Below are positions 5,847 to 39,911 of a stretch of 64,000 bases of DNA, one piece after another. The notes beneath the pieces are model-generated. The model was given only the letters and a program-made list of their open reading frames with translations, did no database searches and was not told the DNA's origin. The DNA comes from Synechococcus sp. PCC 6312 (GTDB lineage Bacteria > Cyanobacteriota > Cyanobacteriia > Thermosynechococcales > Thermosynechococcaceae): NCBI RefSeq assembly GCF_000316685.1, contig NC_019680.1, positions 3,171,407 through 3,235,406 of the forward strand, given 5' to 3'. A program made the position numbers and the translations under genes. Position 1 is the first letter of the stretch. Each line of letters starts with the position of its first letter.

Positions 5847-6889
5847 TCGTCCCCCAGACCCCTTGTGCGTTGCCAAACCATCCAAATTGCATAAATCATT
5901 AACATTGAAGCCCCAATGGCATACCCCCAACCACTGGGAATTCCGGCAAAGCCCAAGGCTAAGCTCCCTACCCAGAGGGTTAAGGCATAAATAAACAGAA
6001 CAGTCCCCCGCTGGGATAGACCTGCTTTTAAGAGCCGATGGTGTAGATGACGTTTATCGGGCTGAAAAGGAGAAAGCCCTCGCCGTAGTCGTTCAATGAC
6101 CACCGTGGAGGTATCAATAATCGGCACTGCCAGGATTAAAAAGGGCAAAGCCACCGCCACCGTTGTCACCCCCTTCACCAGGCCAATCACGCCAATTCCC
6201 GCCAGGGTAAAGCCCATAAAGTAGGCTCCACCATCCCCCATAAAAATCTTGGCAGGATTAAAGTTATACCGCAGAAAACCCAAAGCCCCTCCCGCCAAGG
6301 CCGCCGCTAACAGGCCCGCTGCTGGTTGATTCAGAAATACGCTCACAAACAGCATTACCGCCGCCGCAATGGCCGCTACCCCCGCCGCCAGGCCATCTAA
6401 GCCATCGATAAAATTCATCGCGTTGGTCATACCCACTAGCCAGATGGTCGTCAGGGGTAAACTTAAGGCCCCTAAAGCAACCGTGCCTAAAAATGGCATT
6501 GAAAAGTTTTCAATTCGCACCCCCACGGCCCAAACCAAGCTGGCCGCTATGAATTGAGCCACTAGCCGAACTAAGGCGGGTAAGGTGAAGAGGTCGTCCG
6601 CCAGGCCAATGAGGAAAAAGACAATTCCCCCAACCGTTACCCCCCAAATTCGGTATTCCTCCGAGGTCGGCAGCCAACCAAACCCCCCGGCATTCCAAAC
6701 CAAGAGGAGCGCGACGAGGTTCCCCAGAAAAATGGCCACCCCCCCTAAGCGCACCATTGGCTGGGCATGGACTTTGCGAGCATTCGGTTTATCTACACAG
6801 CCAATTTTTAATCCCAAGGTTTGCACAAAAGGCGTCACCCAGAGAACCACCAGGCAAGCGGCAATAAAAGCAATCAGGTGATAGGGCAT
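5843..6889 (-). CDS. WecA/MraY-family undecaprenyl-phosphate sugar-1-phosphate transferase
   Basis: A 348-residue polytopic enzyme with about ten membrane helices. Family signatures: KVHAQPMVRLGG near residue 39, LIGLADDLF near 92 (Asp-Asp), NAMNFIDGLDGLAAG near 156 and FNPAKIFMGDGGAYFMGF near 211. These proteins move GlcNAc-1-phosphate or a similar sugar from its UDP carrier to undecaprenyl phosphate, the first step in O-antigen, wall polymer or exopolysaccharide synthesis. The MraY-specific His-rich loop is not obvious (only RHLHHRLLKAG near 281), which favours the WecA/TagO branch. It overlaps cinA by 4 bases. The sugar cannot be told from sequence. Confidence 0.88.
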   Translation of the reverse strand: MPYHLIAFIAACLVVLWVTPFVQTLGLKIGCVDKPNARKVHAQPMVRLGGVAIFLGNLVALLLVWNAGGFGWLPTSEEYRIWGVTVGGIVFFLIGLADDLFTLPALVRLVAQFIAASLVWAVGVRIENFSMPFLGTVALGALSLPLTTIWLVGMTNAMNFIDGLDGLAAGVAAIAAAVMLFVSVFLNQPAAGLLAAALAGGALGFLRYNFNPAKIFMGDGGAYFMGFTLAGIGVIGLVKGVTTVAVALPFLILAVPIIDTSTVVIERLRRGLSPFQPDKRHLHHRLLKAGLSQRGTVLFIYALTLWVGSLALGFAGIPSGWGYAIGASMLMIYAIWMVWQRTRGLGDE

Positions 6890-6942
6890 CCGATTCAGAG
6901 GCTTGAGAGCGGATTAAGACGGTCGGTAGCAGTAAACACCTC

Positions 6943-8226
6943 TTAGGCTAACACTGGTTGTGGTTTCGACAAGTGGGGATAGAGGGGAAATTTACTACAA
7001 AGTTGGGCTACCCGGTCGCGACAGGCCTGGGCAATGGTTTTGTCCTCAGGGTGTTGTAAACGATCCGCAATAATTTCGGCAATTTCCCGGAATTCAATTT
7101 CGGTCATCCCCCTGGTAGTCAAGGCCGGTGAACCCAAGCGTAAGCCACTGGTAACAAAGGGTGAGGCTGGATCAAAGGGAATTGTGTTTTTGTTCGTCGT
7201 GATGTTGATCTCAGCCATCAGTTGATCCGCGACTTTTCCGGTTAACCCGACCGAGCGCAAATCAATTAACAATAGGTGATTATCTGTACCCCCAGAGACA
7301 ATGCGTAAGTTGCGGGCTTGTAAACCACTGGCCAGGGCCTGGGCATTACGGATCACTTGGGCAGAATAGGCTTTGAAATCGGGTTTGAGGGCTTCCCCAA
7401 AGGTGACGGCTTTTGCGGCAATAACGTGCTCGAGGGGGCCCCCTTGGCTGCCCGGAAACACGGCCTTATCAAATTTTTTCCCCAGTTCCGCATCTTGAGT
7501 CAAAATTAACCCGCCCCTTGGCCCGCGCAGGGTTTTGTGGGTGGTAGTAGTGACGACATCGCAAATTGGCACCGGATTGGGGTGATGTCCAGAGGCCACC
7601 AGGCCAGCAATGTGGGCCATATCTGCCAAGAGGTAAGCTCCCACTTCATCGGCAATGGCCCGGAATTTTTCAAAGGGAATGACCCGAGGATAGGCCGAAT
7701 AGCCGCAAATAATCAGCTTGGGTTTGTGCTCCAGGGCTAGACTGCGAATTTGGTCAAAATCCAATTGCTCAGTTTCAGGACTCACCCCGTACTGGACAAC
7801 TTTGAACCATTTCCCAGAGACATTGACCGGAGAGCCGTGGGTTAAATGTCCGCCGTGGGATAAGTCCATGCCCAAGATGGTATCCCCAGGGTTAAGGAGG
7901 GCCAAAAAGACGGCAAAGTTGGCCTGGGCCCCGGAGTGGGGTTGGACGTTGGCATGGGTTGCCCCGAACAGTTCCTTCGCCCGCTCGATGGCCAACTGCT
8001 CAACTTGATCGATATAGTCACAACCGCCGTAATAGCGTTTTTCCGGCAATCCTTCGGCATATTTATTGGTTAACACTGAGCCTTGGGCGGCCATGACGGC
8101 GGCAGAGGTAAAGTTTTCGCTGGCAATCAATTCCAAGTGGTTTTGTTGGCGGTGGAGTTCCCGATCCAAAATTGCCGTAACCGCTGGATCTGAAGCAAGG
8201 AGGTAATCCCAATTAGTTTTGGTCAC
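6943..8226 (-). CDS. glyA: Serine hydroxymethyltransferase
   Basis: A complete 427-residue PLP enzyme that interconverts serine and glycine with tetrahydrofolate, supplying one-carbon units and acting in photorespiratory glycine use. Visible motifs: [23 protein letters not shown] near residue 36-58, PHSGAQAN near 95, and the PLP lysine in [13 protein letters not shown] near 227-239. The start is GTG at 8226. It lies 53 bases upstream of the WecA-like gene on the same strand and is divergent from the permease gene, with a 153-base shared control region in which I see no known glycine riboswitch pattern. Confidence 0.97.
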
Positions 8227-8379
8227 AGAGTTATCCTAGTCTAATAGTCTTACAGGAGAGCAAGGGAGAGGGGCAATCACCAGAGCAAGTTATCCGTGGG
8301 ATTATCCCAATAACTCTGCCAGGTTTTTAACCAGATCTTATATCATTTCCGCAAGACATAGTATTTAGGAATCAAAAAA

Positions 8380-9333
8380 TTGCTCTTAGAGACCTACGGC
8401 TTTTTATTCGTTTCGATGACCTTAGGGGCGTTACTGGGCTTATCCCTTTATTTCCCGCTCATGGCAGGGCAGTTATCTTTAGCCAGTCCTGGCTTTTATG
8501 CGTTGGGGGGCTATATTGCGGCAATTTTTTCAACCCGCCTCCTGCCAAGTTCTGGGGGGCTGTATCCACTGGGTTGGGTGGGTTTAGAACTGCTTATCGG
8601 TGGTCTAATGTGTGGGGGCCTGGGAATTATCATTGGGATGCCGACTTTACGGTTACGAGGAATTTATCTAGCCATTGCCACTATTGCCTTTGTGGAAGTC
8701 CTGCGGATTTTGGCCTTGGGCCTGGAGATTACGGGTGGGGCGGTGGGGATTTTCGGCATTCCACAACCCTTTCAAACCCCGATTGAATATCTTTGGTTGA
8801 CATTGCCCCTACTGGTCTTAAGCATGGTCTTTCTCTATCGCCTGGAAAAAATTCGTCCCGGCCGGGCGTTGATTGCGATTCGGGCCGATGAATTAGCCGC
8901 CAGTACTGTGGGAATTAACCCAACCTATTACAAGGTTTTAGCCTTTACCCTGGGGGCAATCTTGGCTGGCCTGGTGGGGGTCATCAGTGCCCATTTCCTT
9001 AATACTTGGAATGCCAGACAGGGGACATTTGATGCTGGGGTGATTTATTTAACGGCCGTTCTCATTGGCGGCAATCGCACCTTTCTTGGCCCCGTGATTG
9101 GGGGCATGATCTTCACAGCCTTACCAGAAGTATTACGGGGCTTAGCAGGCATTCCCGGACTACCTTTATGGTTGCAGCAACTCCTCCAAGAGGGACGATT
9201 AATGATTTTTGGGCTGTTGATCGTCTTGGGCACTATCTTTTTTCCCCGGGGCCTGGTGGTGTCAGAACTTGGGCAAACTTTACGCAAAAAGCTTTTCAAA
9301 TTTGTGGACTCTGCCAAGACTCAGTGGCCCTAA
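8380..9333 (+). CDS. Branched-chain/neutral amino acid-type ABC transporter permease (LivM/NatD-like)
   Basis: A 317-residue permease of the LivM group: SLASPGFYALGGYIAA near residue 33, PTLRLRGIYLAIATIAFVE near 87, GRALIAIRADELAASTVGIN near 166 (the cytoplasmic coupling loop that contacts the ATPase) and a C-terminal hydrophobic block. About nine membrane segments. Such permeases import branched-chain or neutral amino acids or urea; the substrate cannot be told. No binding protein, second permease or ATPase gene is adjacent, so partners must be elsewhere, as for the dispersed nat genes of cyanobacteria. The start is TTG at 8380, preceded by AGGA about ten bases upstream. Its stop codon overlaps that of the convergent amylase gene. 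Confidence 0.82.
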   Translation: MLLETYGFLFVSMTLGALLGLSLYFPLMAGQLSLASPGFYALGGYIAAIFSTRLLPSSGGLYPLGWVGLELLIGGLMCGGLGIIIGMPTLRLRGIYLAIATIAFVEVLRILALGLEITGGAVGIFGIPQPFQTPIEYLWLTLPLLVLSMVFLYRLEKIRPGRALIAIRADELAASTVGINPTYYKVLAFTLGAILAGLVGVISAHFLNTWNARQGTFDAGVIYLTAVLIGGNRTFLGPVIGGMIFTALPEVLRGLAGIPGLPLWLQQLLQEGRLMIFGLLIVLGTIFFPRGLVVSELGQTLRKKLFKFVDSAKTQWP

Positions 9334-10805
9334 ACCTGGCCAAATTCAAAGAGGTGATAGCCCCAGGCCGGGATATCCAGATACAAACCTCTTTGGCGTA
9401 GCTCATCTCCCTGGCGTTCATAACCAGCGGCACTCAGTTGATCCTGCAACCACCACGACTCACCCGCTAGCTCTGGCCAAGGTAAATCCACATAACACTG
9501 GCTGGCATAGGGGGCATAATTGACCACAACCAGTAACCAATTTTTCTCATCCGTCCAGGCCCAGGCCAAGAAATTAGCCCAACTGCCATTCTCTGACCAG
9601 GCCGGACGACAGGTTAAAAATTCCCATGTCCCCGTTCTGAGGATGTTCTGTTGCAATACCGTTAGGAGTTGTTGATAAAAGGCTTCGATACTGGCATTTA
9701 CCGGGGTCTGGGGTTGACGACCGAGGTGGGGCGAGATGCGATGGGGATAACCTTGTAATTGGCCATCATAAAAAAATCGGAGTCCAGGAGTTAAATAGGT
9801 AATGATCGCTGCTGCTTGGTGAACTTCAAAGGAAAACGTCACCGCCGCCCGCTGTTCATCATGGTTTTCTAAAAACCGCACCGCTTGGTTATGGAATTTT
9901 ACTTCTCTGGATAAATGCTCACGCACGGGGGCAACTTGGTGGGAACGAAGCCGATCATAGAGTTGTTTATCGTAGGTGTAATCAAAACCAGCCTCATGGA
10001 GCCGCCACTCCAAATCCCAATAAACTTCTGCCAAAAAACAAAATCCGGGTTGGGCGGCCTGTACCTTGGCAATGGCCTCTGGCCAAAAGGATTGGGCTGC
10101 CCTTCCCCAGGTGAGCGCAAAGACATCCGGCAAGACCAGCATCGCCACATCACAGCGCACCCCATCACACAAAGCTGAGATTTTTACCAATTCCTCAGTC
10201 ATGGCCGCCACCAGGCCTGGTTCAGTGTAATTGAGTTGTAAAGTATCAGGCCAGTCAGCAAAGTAAGGATCTCGTCCATAGGCATAAATTCCACCCCCTG
10301 AGGCATCAGGTAAACGGTAATAGTTTTTGGGTTGGTTCGCTAAATCTGATTCTGTGCCGGAAATAAAGTATTCAGGATGGGTTTGTAGCCACGGGTGATC
10401 CAGGCCCGTATGATTGGGGACAAAATCCAGCATCAGTTTTAGGCCGCGATCATTCAGGCGTTGACGAAAGCGTTGGAGGGCCACATTTCCACCCAATTTG
10501 GGCGCAACGTCATAGGCCTGGATCGCAAACCCAGAACCACAAATATCCTCCGTCTCCAAATCCGGTAACACCGCTTGAAATTCTGATTGCCAGGCCGGGA
10601 AAGCGCGGGAAACCTCCTGACTGGTTGGACTCGTTTGCCAAACACTTAAACACCACAGCCAATTAAAACCCGCTTTAGCCCAGGTATCGAGGAGATAATC
10701 AGGAACATGATCTAAGGTTGCTGGACATCCCAGGTCCTGACTCAAGGCCTGGAGCCAAACGCGGGTGTTAATTTGATAAAGGGACGGGTAGTAGGGTCGC
10801 GACAT
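9330..10805 (-). CDS. GH13 alpha-amylase family glycosidase
   Basis: A cytoplasmic GH13 enzyme of about 491 residues. All four conserved regions are present: DFVPNHTGLDHP (region I), DGVRCDVAML with the nucleophile Asp (region II), FLAEVYWD with the acid/base Glu (region III) and FLENHDEQR with the transition-state Asp (region IV). It probably cleaves or rearranges alpha-1,4 glucans in glycogen turnover. I start it at the ATG at 10805 (MSRPYYPSLYQINTRVWL); the frame stays open further upstream, but that part is AT-rich and unlike the family. No secretion signal. Together with the GH57 enzyme at 14.7 kb it points to glycogen metabolism. Exact specificity unknown. Confidence 0.88.
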   Translation of the reverse strand: MSRPYYPSLYQINTRVWLQALSQDLGCPATLDHVPDYLLDTWAKAGFNWLWCLSVWQTSPTSQEVSRAFPAWQSEFQAVLPDLETEDICGSGFAIQAYDVAPKLGGNVALQRFRQRLNDRGLKLMLDFVPNHTGLDHPWLQTHPEYFISGTESDLANQPKNYYRLPDASGGGIYAYGRDPYFADWPDTLQLNYTEPGLVAAMTEELVKISALCDGVRCDVAMLVLPDVFALTWGRAAQSFWPEAIAKVQAAQPGFCFLAEVYWDLEWRLHEAGFDYTYDKQLYDRLRSHQVAPVREHLSREVKFHNQAVRFLENHDEQRAAVTFSFEVHQAAAIITYLTPGLRFFYDGQLQGYPHRISPHLGRQPQTPVNASIEAFYQQLLTVLQQNILRTGTWEFLTCRPAWSENGSWANFLAWAWTDEKNWLLVVVNYAPYASQCYVDLPWPELAGESWWLQDQLSAAGYERQGDELRQRGLYLDIPAWGYHLFEFGQV

Positions 10806-11463
10806 CAAGGGTAGAAAAATATGATACTCACAGTATAAATTATGCTTAAAAACTAATAGAAACCTAATGCCGATTAAGACCAACACATTAAAAAACTTAA
10901 TATATTTACTATTTATGACCAACTGTTAAGATTAATATTGTTTGTATTTGCGTTCATCTGATTGAATCCTAAATTCACGATCTAATACAAGCATAAACTT
11001 TTGCTTGACAAGAAAAATTGGCATGAAATTGATATTTACTAGACAAATTTAATTAATTAAAATATTTAATCTAAACTAGTTGATCTTGATCCTAATAGAA
11101 ATGAGAATCTCCATCTCTTCTACTTTGACAGTCTTCAAAGGTTTTGACGGACAACCCATAGGAATGTGAGGAGGACTCAGAATATCTAGCTGACTCAATT
11201 AATATATTCATGGGTTATAACATTCATAGATTTCAAAAAACTTGCCTATAAATAGATTAAGTAGAAAGAGAACTAATTTGCATAAGCTAGATCTATCTAA
11301 CCCTGGTTTTCTATTTAACCCTAAGGTTGTTAAAGACTTTTATGGTTCATGATCATCATGAATGAGATAAAGTAATGACCCACCTGCCTTAATGTTACGG
11401 ATTTAGAATTGGATCATGGCAAGCTAAAGAGCCTCTTCCCGGAGCAGGCTTTCTAAAGTTTTT
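10806..11463. other. Long AT-rich intergenic region with no recognisable gene
   Basis: About 660 bases, clearly richer in A+T than the rest of the window, between the divergent amylase and DMT exporter genes. I found no convincing coding frame, tRNA or known RNA. It has AT-rich tracts around 11045-11085, a Shine-Dalgarno-like purine run at 11167-11173 with no start behind it, and a perfect interrupted palindrome at 11346-11362. It may hold both promoters plus remnants of transferred DNA. Confidence 0.5.
11346..11362. promoter_or_regulatory. Perfect 8+1+8 dyad, candidate operator
   Basis: TTCATGAT, one base, then ATCATGAA: exact 8-base arms about 100 bases before the start of the DMT exporter gene. 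The shape and length suit a dimeric helix-turn-helix regulator. No matching regulator gene is nearby and I cannot name the protein. Confidence 0.35.
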
Positions 11464-37331: not shown

Positions 37332-39464
37332 TCAAGGAGCAATCAAAAAGGTGTAAAGACTAAACAATACTAATAATCCAAAAATCGCCGTAGCCCAATA
37401 GGGTGCGCGTCCCCAAAAGACCAGGCCTGGACTCCCCAAACAACGAGCCTGTTCAACATCAATCCAGGGAACTTCGCTACGCCGCCACCACCCCTGCACC
37501 TCAATTTGGCGATCTCCCCAGGCCCCAAACGGACTTCTCCACAGATGGCTGAATGGCCCCCACCACCCCAAAGCCCGCAGTTGCCAAAGCCCGACTTCTG
37601 TTTCTAGCCACAGCCCTTGGCCTAAGCCATGCTCTAAACCCCGCATCCGTAATAACCGCCCCGTCAACTTTAGCGGCACACTATCTAAGGGCAAAGCAAT
37701 GGGGCTTTCAATCAGGGGTTTTAGTAACTGGGGATCAGTAACAGGCGTGGTAATTTCTGGATAATAGGCGTTAATCCGTAACAAAATTCCCAGGCCCAGC
37801 CCCAAACTTCCCCAACCCCAGAGCATGAGATTCAAATTGGCAAACCACCAAAACTTAATTCCAATTGCCCCGGTGCGTAAGGCAAACTCTCCCCCCCGCC
37901 ACACCAAAATGGCTAGAAATAATCCCAGGAATAAGCCCCAAACTGGAGTTAACTGTCGCCAAAATTGCCGTTGTCCTGTCCAGGCTTGGGACTGCTCACC
38001 AAACTCAAATTGGGGTTTTAATTGCCACTTTTGGGCGTAGATACTCAGGGCCTGGAGCCGGATACCCAAAAAGCGATGAGAGTGAAACAAGCTAAACCAA
38101 TCTTTAAGGGGATTTTGCCGCTCCCAGGCCGTCAGCTTGACCCAATCTCGCGACTGGGGTGGAAACTGGAGACTCCCATAGGTGATCGCCGCAGCGGCAT
38201 GAACGGGAAAAACCAAGCTCAACGACTCAAATAGGGGTGAAACCTCTCTTGTCTGATACACCACCTCTGCCATGGCCTGACTGAGATGAATCAGGGCCTG
38301 GCTTAAGCCATTGGGATGGCCTGTAAAGGCGGCCGTCGCCCGATCTGTGAAGTAGAACCGAACCCGCGCGGCTGGAGCAATGATTTTTTCCAAAAGCCAG
38401 ACCAGGCCATAGGCCAAGGCCGTTGTGACACAGCCGCAGCCATAAATAAGCCGATTTAAGAATATTAGCCCCGCATCAACTTGACGGTCTTGGTGCTGAC
38501 GGTTAAGGCATTCCAAGCGGTGGGCAAAATAGTTCCCACATTGGGCAGTGGTTTGATAAAGCTCATAGATGAGTTGCCGCACAAAAACCATTGGCCCCAG
38601 CAACAGATTATAGCCTCGCCGGAGTTGGATGATTTCAGCACTGATGAGGATGGCAATTTCATCGGCGGCCAAAGCCGTTAGTAGCCCCTGACTGATCACC
38701 ACCCAACGCCGCAAGTGTCCAAAACTAAAAATTAAGGGAACAGCAGTGGGTAAAAACCCTAGTTGCGGCTTCGGCTGAAACCCAGACCAGGCCCAGCGGC
38801 CCCAAAACTTGATACTTTCTGGGCTGTAGGTATTTAAGGTAATTAAATCCAATGGCTTGAGTGAGAACTTCCAACGCAGGAGTTGTACCCAGGCCCAGGG
38901 ATAACCGACCCCAATCACTAGGGCCAAAACCCCCGTCAAAAACCAGGCCATAGCCCAGGCCCAGGCATCGAGACTATACCAAGCACTGAAAAAGTTGATG
39001 AGTGGCTGAACAATGATGATCCGATTCAACCAGGCCCCGCCCATCCACAAAACCCCTAAACAGGCCATCTGCGTCACCCAGAGTCGCCAGGGAGAAACTT
39101 GCCGCAACACTTGTCCAGAAATAGCCCGTTCCAAGATTGGGGTTGGAGCCAGAACTGTGGGAAGAGCTAGGGATTGGGAGAGTTCCGCTTTGCGCTGGAG
39201 AATCGGGCGGGCTTTTTCGACCCAATCGCGCACCTTGGCCTGGGGCAGTTCTGCCAAGTGATCACAGAGGGCCAAGGCCTGAGGAAATTCACCAACCGCC
39301 GCATAGGCCTGGATGAGATGGAGTTGCGCTGTCACCCCCCAAGACGTGGAGCCATATTGCTTTTTAATCGCTTCTAAGGCGGCAATGGCGATGGGATAAT
39401 CCTGGCGATTGAGGGCCGCTAAGGCAGCAACTAAACGCGGCTCTAGTTGATAGTCATCGAGCAT
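37332..39464 (-). CDS. TPR plus M48-like membrane protein without the catalytic HExxH
   Basis: About 710 residues. N-terminal TPR-like helices (residues 1-90: LNRQDYPIAIAALEAIKKQY), two membrane helices at about 130-200, then a region matching M48 (HtpX-like) proteases of cyanobacteria: GLLTALAADEIAILISAEIIQL near 270 sits where LAADELxAILAHELGH is expected, but both His are gone (SAEIIQ). YFTDRATAAFTGHPNGLSQAL near 380 matches the M48 third-ligand region. The C-terminal half has further helices and an OB-like soluble part. Probably an inactive protease-derived scaffold. ATG at 39464 chosen as the family's MLDxYQLEPRL start; ATG at 39488 also possible. Confidence 0.7.
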   Translation of the reverse strand: MLDDYQLEPRLVAALAALNRQDYPIAIAALEAIKKQYGSTSWGVTAQLHLIQAYAAVGEFPQALALCDHLAELPQAKVRDWVEKARPILQRKAELSQSLALPTVLAPTPILERAISGQVLRQVSPWRLWVTQMACLGVLWMGGAWLNRIIIVQPLINFFSAWYSLDAWAWAMAWFLTGVLALVIGVGYPWAWVQLLRWKFSLKPLDLITLNTYSPESIKFWGRWAWSGFQPKPQLGFLPTAVPLIFSFGHLRRWVVISQGLLTALAADEIAILISAEIIQLRRGYNLLLGPMVFVRQLIYELYQTTAQCGNYFAHRLECLNRQHQDRQVDAGLIFLNRLIYGCGCVTTALAYGLVWLLEKIIAPAARVRFYFTDRATAAFTGHPNGLSQALIHLSQAMAEVVYQTREVSPLFESLSLVFPVHAAAAITYGSLQFPPQSRDWVKLTAWERQNPLKDWFSLFHSHRFLGIRLQALSIYAQKWQLKPQFEFGEQSQAWTGQRQFWRQLTPVWGLFLGLFLAILVWRGGEFALRTGAIGIKFWWFANLNLMLWGWGSLGLGLGILLRINAYYPEITTPVTDPQLLKPLIESPIALPLDSVPLKLTGRLLRMRGLEHGLGQGLWLETEVGLWQLRALGWWGPFSHLWRSPFGAWGDRQIEVQGWWRRSEVPWIDVEQARCLGSPGLVFWGRAPYWATAIFGLLVLFSLYTFLIAP

Positions 39465-39911
39465 AGTCAGGGACGGAAGGTGATTCAATCTCCAGACTAG
39501 GCGATTCTCTCCCAGTTTTTCTGCTGCGGTCCCAGTTGGTGATCAATGTTTATCAGGTTTTCCCCAGTCAGGCTGAATTGGGCTGTGGACGCTGATGATG
39601 TGACGGGGGTAGTGGCACGTCCGAAAAATTCCTGAAAAAATGCCTAAAAATCAGAAAGGACATCGACGACTTTCCGTGTTTCGTCTCGATGCCCTGACTG
39701 GTTCGCTCCTCACATTAATAAATGTACCAGATAATCTCCATTCCGTCACATCTCTTCCTAAAGATTTACCAAACTGAATATGTCCTGATTGCATCCCCCG
39801 GTCTCGCGCCAGTAGGCTAAACCTATCCCAATATTTCCCGGCCCCGCCGCGGAACAGATCGGATCAAACCCCAGAGACTATAGACTTCAGAGTGTTCAGA
39901 TATCCAATGCC
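39465..39911. other. Divergent intergenic region with two possible RNA hairpins
   Basis: About 445 bases between the M48-like and antiporter genes. On the + strand CATCGA-C-GAC (39661-39670) can pair with GTCTCGATG (39683-39691), and 15 bases on CTGGT...ACCAG encloses ACATT-AATA-AATGT, with GCTCCTCAC exposed on one side of it. This lies 180-250 bases before the antiporter ATG. No coding frame stands out. The structures could be a leader element or a small RNA. Confidence 0.35.

Follow-up and report, generated by a model that had tools for sequence, protein, structure and literature searches.

The window, by which we mean the whole 64,000-nucleotide stretch of DNA that was analysed, harbors on its minus strand a gene for a 710-residue membrane protein that is related to the M48 peptidases and has lost the metal ligands of the active site. 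The frame runs from an ATG at 39464 to a stop codon at 37332-37334, and a TTG at 39488, upstream of this ATG, is a possible alternative start. The original prediction had described an intact frame in which the flanking features of an M48 peptidase surround a zinc helix, SAEIIQL, that lacks both histidines, and this description is borne out. The 710 codons of 37332-39464 are uninterrupted, LAADEIAILI precedes and YFTDRATAAFTGHPNGL follows the former active site, and AEIIQ stands in the place of HExxH. The features of the protein are given below, where P denotes the clade of relatives to which it belongs and A a second group of the same architecture.

37332..39464, minus strand: M48-type pseudoprotease frame (P clade), 710 amino acids (open frame and relatives)
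39168..39440, minus strand: N-terminal TPR-like helices, residues 9-99 (model, pLDDT mostly above 90, Z up to 12.5; Pfam under cut-off)
38865..39089, minus strand: two membrane helices preceding the M48 region, residues 126-200 (hydropathy, helices in the model)
38673..38771, minus strand: beta-hairpin beside the former active site, the edge-strand region of M48 enzymes, residues 232-264 (model, conservation)
38616..38669, minus strand: former zinc-binding helix, residues 266-283 (alignment)
38625..38639, minus strand: AEIIQ replacing HExxH, residues 276-280 (sequence, alignment column states)
38250..38363, minus strand: lost third ligand (Phe370) and kept G(N/H)PNGL, residues 368-405 (alignment)
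38052..38084, minus strand: HSHRFLGIRLQ, counterpart of the HtpX STHPxxxxRI segment (alignment with HtpX)
37764..37949, minus strand: two further membrane helices, residues 506-567 (model, hydropathy)
37413..37697, minus strand: C-terminal beta domain, residues 590-684, common to A and P (model)
37341..37406, minus strand: C-terminal membrane helix, residues 687-708 (model, hydropathy)

In an alignment with relatives that carry HELGH, the first histidine is replaced by alanine and the second by glutamine, while the glutamate between them is retained. The third ligand, a loss that the original prediction had missed, is also gone: the REYFADH of relatives with ligands reads VRFYFTDR in the window protein, where the glutamate has become Phe370 (38355-38357). 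The GNPNGL motif persists as GHPNGL. The ligand columns of the window protein are A-E-Q-F, with all three metal ligands absent, and both the HExxH motif and the third zinc-ligand glutamate of an active M48 peptidase are missing. With these ligands gone, proteolysis has very probably been lost as well.

Membership of the M48 family and predicted fold

The window protein is divergent, and on its own it gives no match to Pfam M48 at an E-value of 1. It matches the NCBIfam HtpX model at 3e-7, which is far under the cut-off of that model (29.9 bits against 341), and six other members of P or A that were scanned also fall under this equivalog cut-off. Within its family, PF01435 is matched by 38 of the 39 members of family alignment A4, at best with 2e-18, the exception being the window protein itself, and the profile of this alignment finds the HtpX structure 3cqb at 4.8e-8. 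Judged by these sequence profiles, the family is homologous to M48 and the relationship of the window protein to it is beyond chance. Near-full-length relatives of the window protein are found in G002 and in the genomes of genus g6.

The AlphaFold model of the window protein is confident (pLDDT 85.8, pTM 0.79) and starts with TPR-like helices and a pair of membrane helices, continues with an M48-like part, two long helices and a second membrane pair, and ends in the beta domain and one final membrane helix. Foldseek, queried with this model, put ZMPSTE24 and HtpX first, at probabilities of 0.85 and 1.00 but with E-values near 0.1, which is weak. The 50 matches listed by VIA-align for the whole model are all of the TPR type with no M48 chain among them, which says nothing against an M48 relationship since one domain, the TPR part, accounts for every one. 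An A-type protein was modelled as well (pLDDT 76.3), and its model aligns with ZMPSTE24 with a Z of 11.8 and an rmsd of 4.9 over 217 residues. The P fold is thus predicted to persist. A TPR region had also been foreseen, and the fold is indeed present in the model, in which residues 2-101 resemble TPR-type structures with Z up to 12.5; a long array is not, as the region spans only some 90 residues. All Pfam TPR models remain under cut-off on the window protein.

The C-terminal beta domain, residues 590-684, gives no Pfam match but contains a conserved G-W-x-R-R motif and is common to A and P. Among the Foldseek matches of the P model, lysyl-tRNA synthetase appears at ranks 39-50 with an E-value of about 1, a hint of an OB fold in this domain that is too weak to claim. 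As regards topology, the loop at residues 153-168 is without lysine or arginine, and the loop at residues 188-260 has four, near its ends.

Two groups of one architecture in the cyanobacteria

A search of 39 relatives, followed by alignment, gave two groups of one architecture, A and P. Group A carries YAHELGHIVHWDFAVMT and REYFADHFAAE, whereas group P has neither. In a larger alignment of 146 rows, from which sequences shorter than 480 amino acids and those identical over the last 250 residues had been dropped, the first histidine, the glutamate, the second histidine and the third-ligand glutamate are all present in 40 of 40 A rows. Among the 93 P rows, the first histidine is found in only 2, the glutamate in 76, the second histidine in 56 and the third-ligand glutamate in none, and the replacements at the lost ligand columns vary freely. 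The remaining 13 rows, termed Q, lie nearer to A on the tree and lack both histidines and the third glutamate in every case. Q consists of L136 together with rows of families f5 and f23; its zinc helix reads QALGR or YQLGR in L127, L128, L130-L132 and L152 (f5) and in L154-L159 (f23). Q groups mostly share their genomes with an active A type (17 of 20).

The tree was built from 119 of the 146 rows, near-copies having been dropped and the motif columns left out. On it, A forms one side of a branch (96*), another starred branch sets P, with 81 rows, apart from A and Q, and two changes suffice to explain the HExxH state over the whole tree. The loss of HExxH marks a clade of 81 rows across the cyanobacteria, which was the point to be checked. 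Close relatives that retain HExxH, which would have spoken for decay in a single strain, were not found: the lineage of the window is one clade (100*) of seven tree rows and none of them has the motif. The window protein is itself a long-branched row (0.93), and neither its ligands nor its place on the tree allow its inclusion in the A clade. The members of P are integral-membrane homologues of M48, of the HtpX/Ste24-like kind, and form a clade conserved in the cyanobacteria; we infer that its ligand loss predates the split of most cyanobacterial families.

The two P rows that do contain HExxH, L067 and L073, belong to genus g68 of another family and read YAHEVGH and YAHEIGH, with the third ligand missing. 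They are nested deep in P, where their nearest relative, L076, has NEVGH, and a back-change to histidine at one site would be the simplest account of their sequences. A second tree was rooted with HtpX, after seven long-branched P rows had been dropped and P and A had been thinned to 39 and 14 rows, respectively. The outgroup branch in this tree is long and weakly supported (60), which leaves the root poorly placed, and the test does not reject (p-AU 0.68) a topology with P and Q as one group, in which a single loss would account for both.

The distribution of these proteins was scored in 146 cyanobacterial genomes, for P by profile score, with the tree used for low scorers and G096 assigned by score and genus alone, and for A by a profile score above 800 bits, with 40 A rows read. 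P is found in 94 genomes and A in 43, with both in 25 and P without A in 69. A without P occurs in 18, and 17 of these hold Q, such that 42 of the 43 A genomes also encode a P or Q protein without HExxH. P and A are both missing from the small genomes of family f2. In L229, from a Leptolyngbyaceae metagenome-assembled genome, P (5902-8436) and A (8501-11047) stand in tandem on one strand with 64 bases between them, and in G109 the two are about 14 kb apart on one contig. A-type proteins such as that of L229 (8501-11047) have 27-32% identity to P members.

The genome of the window contains P and no A-type sister; the A-type profile gives three matches in it, and those listed are pieces of the P gene. 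A check for an active paralogue in this genome had been suggested, and there are indeed three other M48 proteins with HExxH (L001, L002 and L003), canonical HtpX not being among them. All three are of other architecture, however, and P is thus without an active partner built like itself.

Nearly every genome with P has it as an open frame. Pairwise dN/dS among six close P copies of genus g6 is 0.16-0.32 in each of the 15 comparisons; these six are relatives with the same ligand loss, and the window copy lies outside the set. The suggestion of a maintained pseudoprotease is supported by the 81-row clade without HExxH, the open frames and these ratios, that is, by a clade-wide loss of the catalytic residues together with purifying selection in relatives. 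The P gene is in two open frames in two single relatives, L012 (G022) and L219, reflecting either decay or sequencing error, and one internal stop is found in the P match of G137, G054 and G066, among the matches listed.

When P is divided into 12 segments, with a mean conservation of 0.40, the best conserved is the hairpin beside the former active site (0.55), followed by the NPxxW..HP segment (0.51), the third-ligand/GNPNG segment (0.49) and the zinc helix (0.48), with the beta domain and the last helix both at 0.47. The lead of the hairpin is small, as the zinc helix and the third-ligand segment are still fairly conserved. The most conserved individual residues include His463 and Arg469 of the HSHRFLGIRLQ segment and G658, W659, R661, R662 and W667 of the beta domain. 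Relative to A, the M48 segments of P are relaxed, with P/A conservation ratios of 0.58-0.71, compared with 0.97 for the TPR region, 0.94 for TM5-6 and 0.88 for TM7, and any retained binding by the M48 part is for this reason suggestive only. As read from the alignment, the pattern fits a cleft that would be needed for shape or binding and not for catalysis.

Genes that neighbour P

At 80 P loci, the commonest neighbour is an RRM protein, encoded downstream and on the same strand in 51. RF3 (prfC) lies upstream on the same strand at 34 of the 80, in 23 cases within 300 bases, and the next families are found at 25, 14, 14 and 13 loci. Pfam confirms both RF3 and the RRM at locus L194. The motif PDPRWA, which is present in 50 of the 51 RRM neighbours, is described as a motif of Rbp3-type proteins (PMC9333190).

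Because these 80 loci had been fetched by sequence patterns of P, the linkage test was repeated in the 146 genomes. Rbp3 could be placed in 91 of the 93 P genomes, the exceptions being G025 and G031 with weak matches only, and in 41 of the 43 A genomes (G101, with a weak match, and G096, with A and Rbp3 on different contigs, being left out). In 46 of the 91 genomes, from 15 of 22 families, P has the best Rbp3 match no more than 5 kb away; this is a lower bound, since many genomes that show no linkage are drafts in which P and rbp3 fall on separate contigs. For A the count is 0 of 41. In 45 of the 91, rbp3 follows downstream of P on the same strand, in most cases at a distance of 500-800 bases. 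Linkage is absent in the family of the window (f1, 0 of 11) and in f17 (0 of 6), and rare in f24 (3 of 15).

The spacing between P and rbp3, some 500-800 bases, recurs in many families, for example at L194:8530-9192, and the gap may hold a long rbp3 leader. Rfam at gathering thresholds gave no match in this gap at seven loci. Its sole match over the seven loci, at L256:4779-4831 in Planktothrix, is NsiR1 (nitrogen stress-induced RNA), upstream of P.

Rbp3/RbpG is an RNA-binding protein of thylakoid biogenesis: photosynthetic mRNAs are reported to be bound by Rbp3, and loss of its Anabaena homologue, RbpG, to disturb thylakoids and photosystem II repair (PMC11500504). Judging from gene order in Nostoc relatives, the P gene of Anabaena PCC 7120 is probably the one immediately before rbpG (all4377). 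The linkage of P with rbp3 and prfC suggests an involvement in co-translational thylakoid biogenesis.

Possible roles and known systems

The reading that we favor, and consider somewhat probable from the sequence comparisons, is that P is a conserved membrane pseudoprotease that binds without cutting, perhaps in thylakoid biogenesis. The loss of the ligands is common across the cyanobacteria, often in a gene beside rbp3, which is probably the mark of a conserved, non-cutting helper and not of a broken gene. Going by HtpX and the charge of the loops, the TPR, M48 and C-terminal beta domains would face the cytosol. The M48 cleft, made up of the edge-strand hairpin and the HSHPxxGxR segment, may still bind stretches of membrane proteins without cutting them, and P could then act as a holdase or adaptor in the biogenesis or quality control of membrane proteins, much as the BepA edge-strand has a chaperone-like role. 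From the gene order with rbp3 (and prfC) in other families, the process served would be co-translational thylakoid biogenesis. A narrower version, in which P would be the thylakoid-side partner of Rbp3/RbpG and its non-cutting cleft would hold nascent photosynthetic membrane proteins or mRNA-ribosome complexes, appears improbable.

Several other explanations have to be weighed against this one. The M48 part could be a structural relic and the membrane part a scaffold, the function being carried by the TPR region and the C-terminal beta domain. This we hold to be unlikely, though less so than the other alternatives: the TPR region, TM5-6 and TM7 are indeed nearly as conserved as in A, whereas the M48 segments of P are relaxed, and the beta domain contributes five of the residues listed above as most conserved, but absolute conservation is highest within the M48 part, in the hairpin and the NPxxW..HP segment. 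Next in probability, and also unlikely, is a role of P as a regulator or competitor of its active A-type sister, or as its partner in mixed complexes. Inactive subunits within a protease complex are familiar from the ClpR proteins of ClpP rings, P and A share one architecture, both occur in 25 of the 146 genomes, in tandem in L229 and about 14 kb apart in G109, and nearly every A genome encodes some P or Q protein without HExxH. However, 69 of the 94 P genomes, including that of the window, have no A. Within the family of the window, moreover, P (g1, g3 and g6) and A (g8, g11 and part of g4) were seen in separate genera among the genomes covered. In relatives of genus g11 under the completeness filter, A is present and P was not found, so that A does not depend on P. 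In genomes with both, P may regulate its active sister, but this cannot serve as a general role, and the original proposal, of a protein that binds the substrates of an active paralogue or competes with it, is accordingly not supported as a general explanation.

Gene order is the source of a further proposal, doubtful in our estimation, in which P would be a membrane anchor or receptor for photosynthetic mRNAs bound by Rbp3/RbpG, or for their ribosomes. In its favor are the position of rbp3, which is the next gene downstream of P on its strand in about half of the P genomes and is near A in none, the PDPRWA motif of the RRM neighbours and RF3 upstream. The usual gap before rbp3, however, makes a single transcript doubtful, and the family of the window has no rbp3 link at all. 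It is very improbable that P has remained a protease by using different ligands. The glutamate and the second histidine do persist in many P rows and two rows have HExxH, yet the first histidine is missing in 91 of 93 and the third glutamate in all 93, the replacements are free, and the window copy has neither histidine nor the third glutamate. Finally, the window protein has diverged enough to miss Pfam M48, as might a gene in decay, but single-strain decay or sequencing error has a negligible probability and was rejected: the same loss is seen in all rows of its lineage and in nearly the whole clade, the frame is open, and relatives with the same loss have dN/dS ratios of 0.16-0.32.

Pseudoproteases are a known kind of protein. 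A search of the literature on cyanobacterial M48 pseudoproteases, all4378, and prfC with rbp3 gave nothing on the P family among the matches listed, and the main text of a 2024 review of metallopeptidase pseudoenzymes (PMC11266112) does not mention M48, HtpX or Ste24. The cyanobacteria-wide inactive M48 branch and its linkage with rbp3 were not found among the literature matches listed, and the linkage is new here. The organisation of thylakoid protein targeting is described as poorly understood (PMC11500504), and P, a conserved and uncharacterised membrane protein whose gene neighbours rbp3 in 15 families, offers itself as a candidate for this question.

Among known proteins, cyanobacterial HtpX (L299, L300, L302 and L303) has the same order of motifs as P: an NAFATG hairpin, the HExxH helix, a membrane hairpin, REFxAD..TGNPxAL and STHPxxxxRI. 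HtpX is, however, only some 290 amino acids long and has all of the ligands, whereas P lacks the ligands and adds the TPR and C-terminal beta domains. Ste24/ZMPSTE24, the top Foldseek match of the P model, shares the membrane M48 fold but is an active enzyme, and the likeness is of fold only, with a weak E-value for P. The A-type M48-TPR proteins resemble P over the full length of the architecture, at 27-32% identity, and differ in that their four catalytic columns are intact in 40 of 40 rows. BepA of E. coli also combines M48 with TPR, but is periplasmic and proteolytically active; its edge-strand is reported to have a role in proteolysis as well as in a chaperone-like function (PMC8423444), and by its position in the M48 fold the hairpin of P may be the counterpart of this strand. 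The closest parallels for the loss of activity are FtsHi and EGY3 of plastid membranes, metalloprotease homologues that are likewise retained without activity (PMC11266112; PMC9355673). These belong to other families, namely FtsH (M41, AAA) and the site-2 proteases, and with P, M48 would join the metalloprotease families that have a conserved inactive branch.
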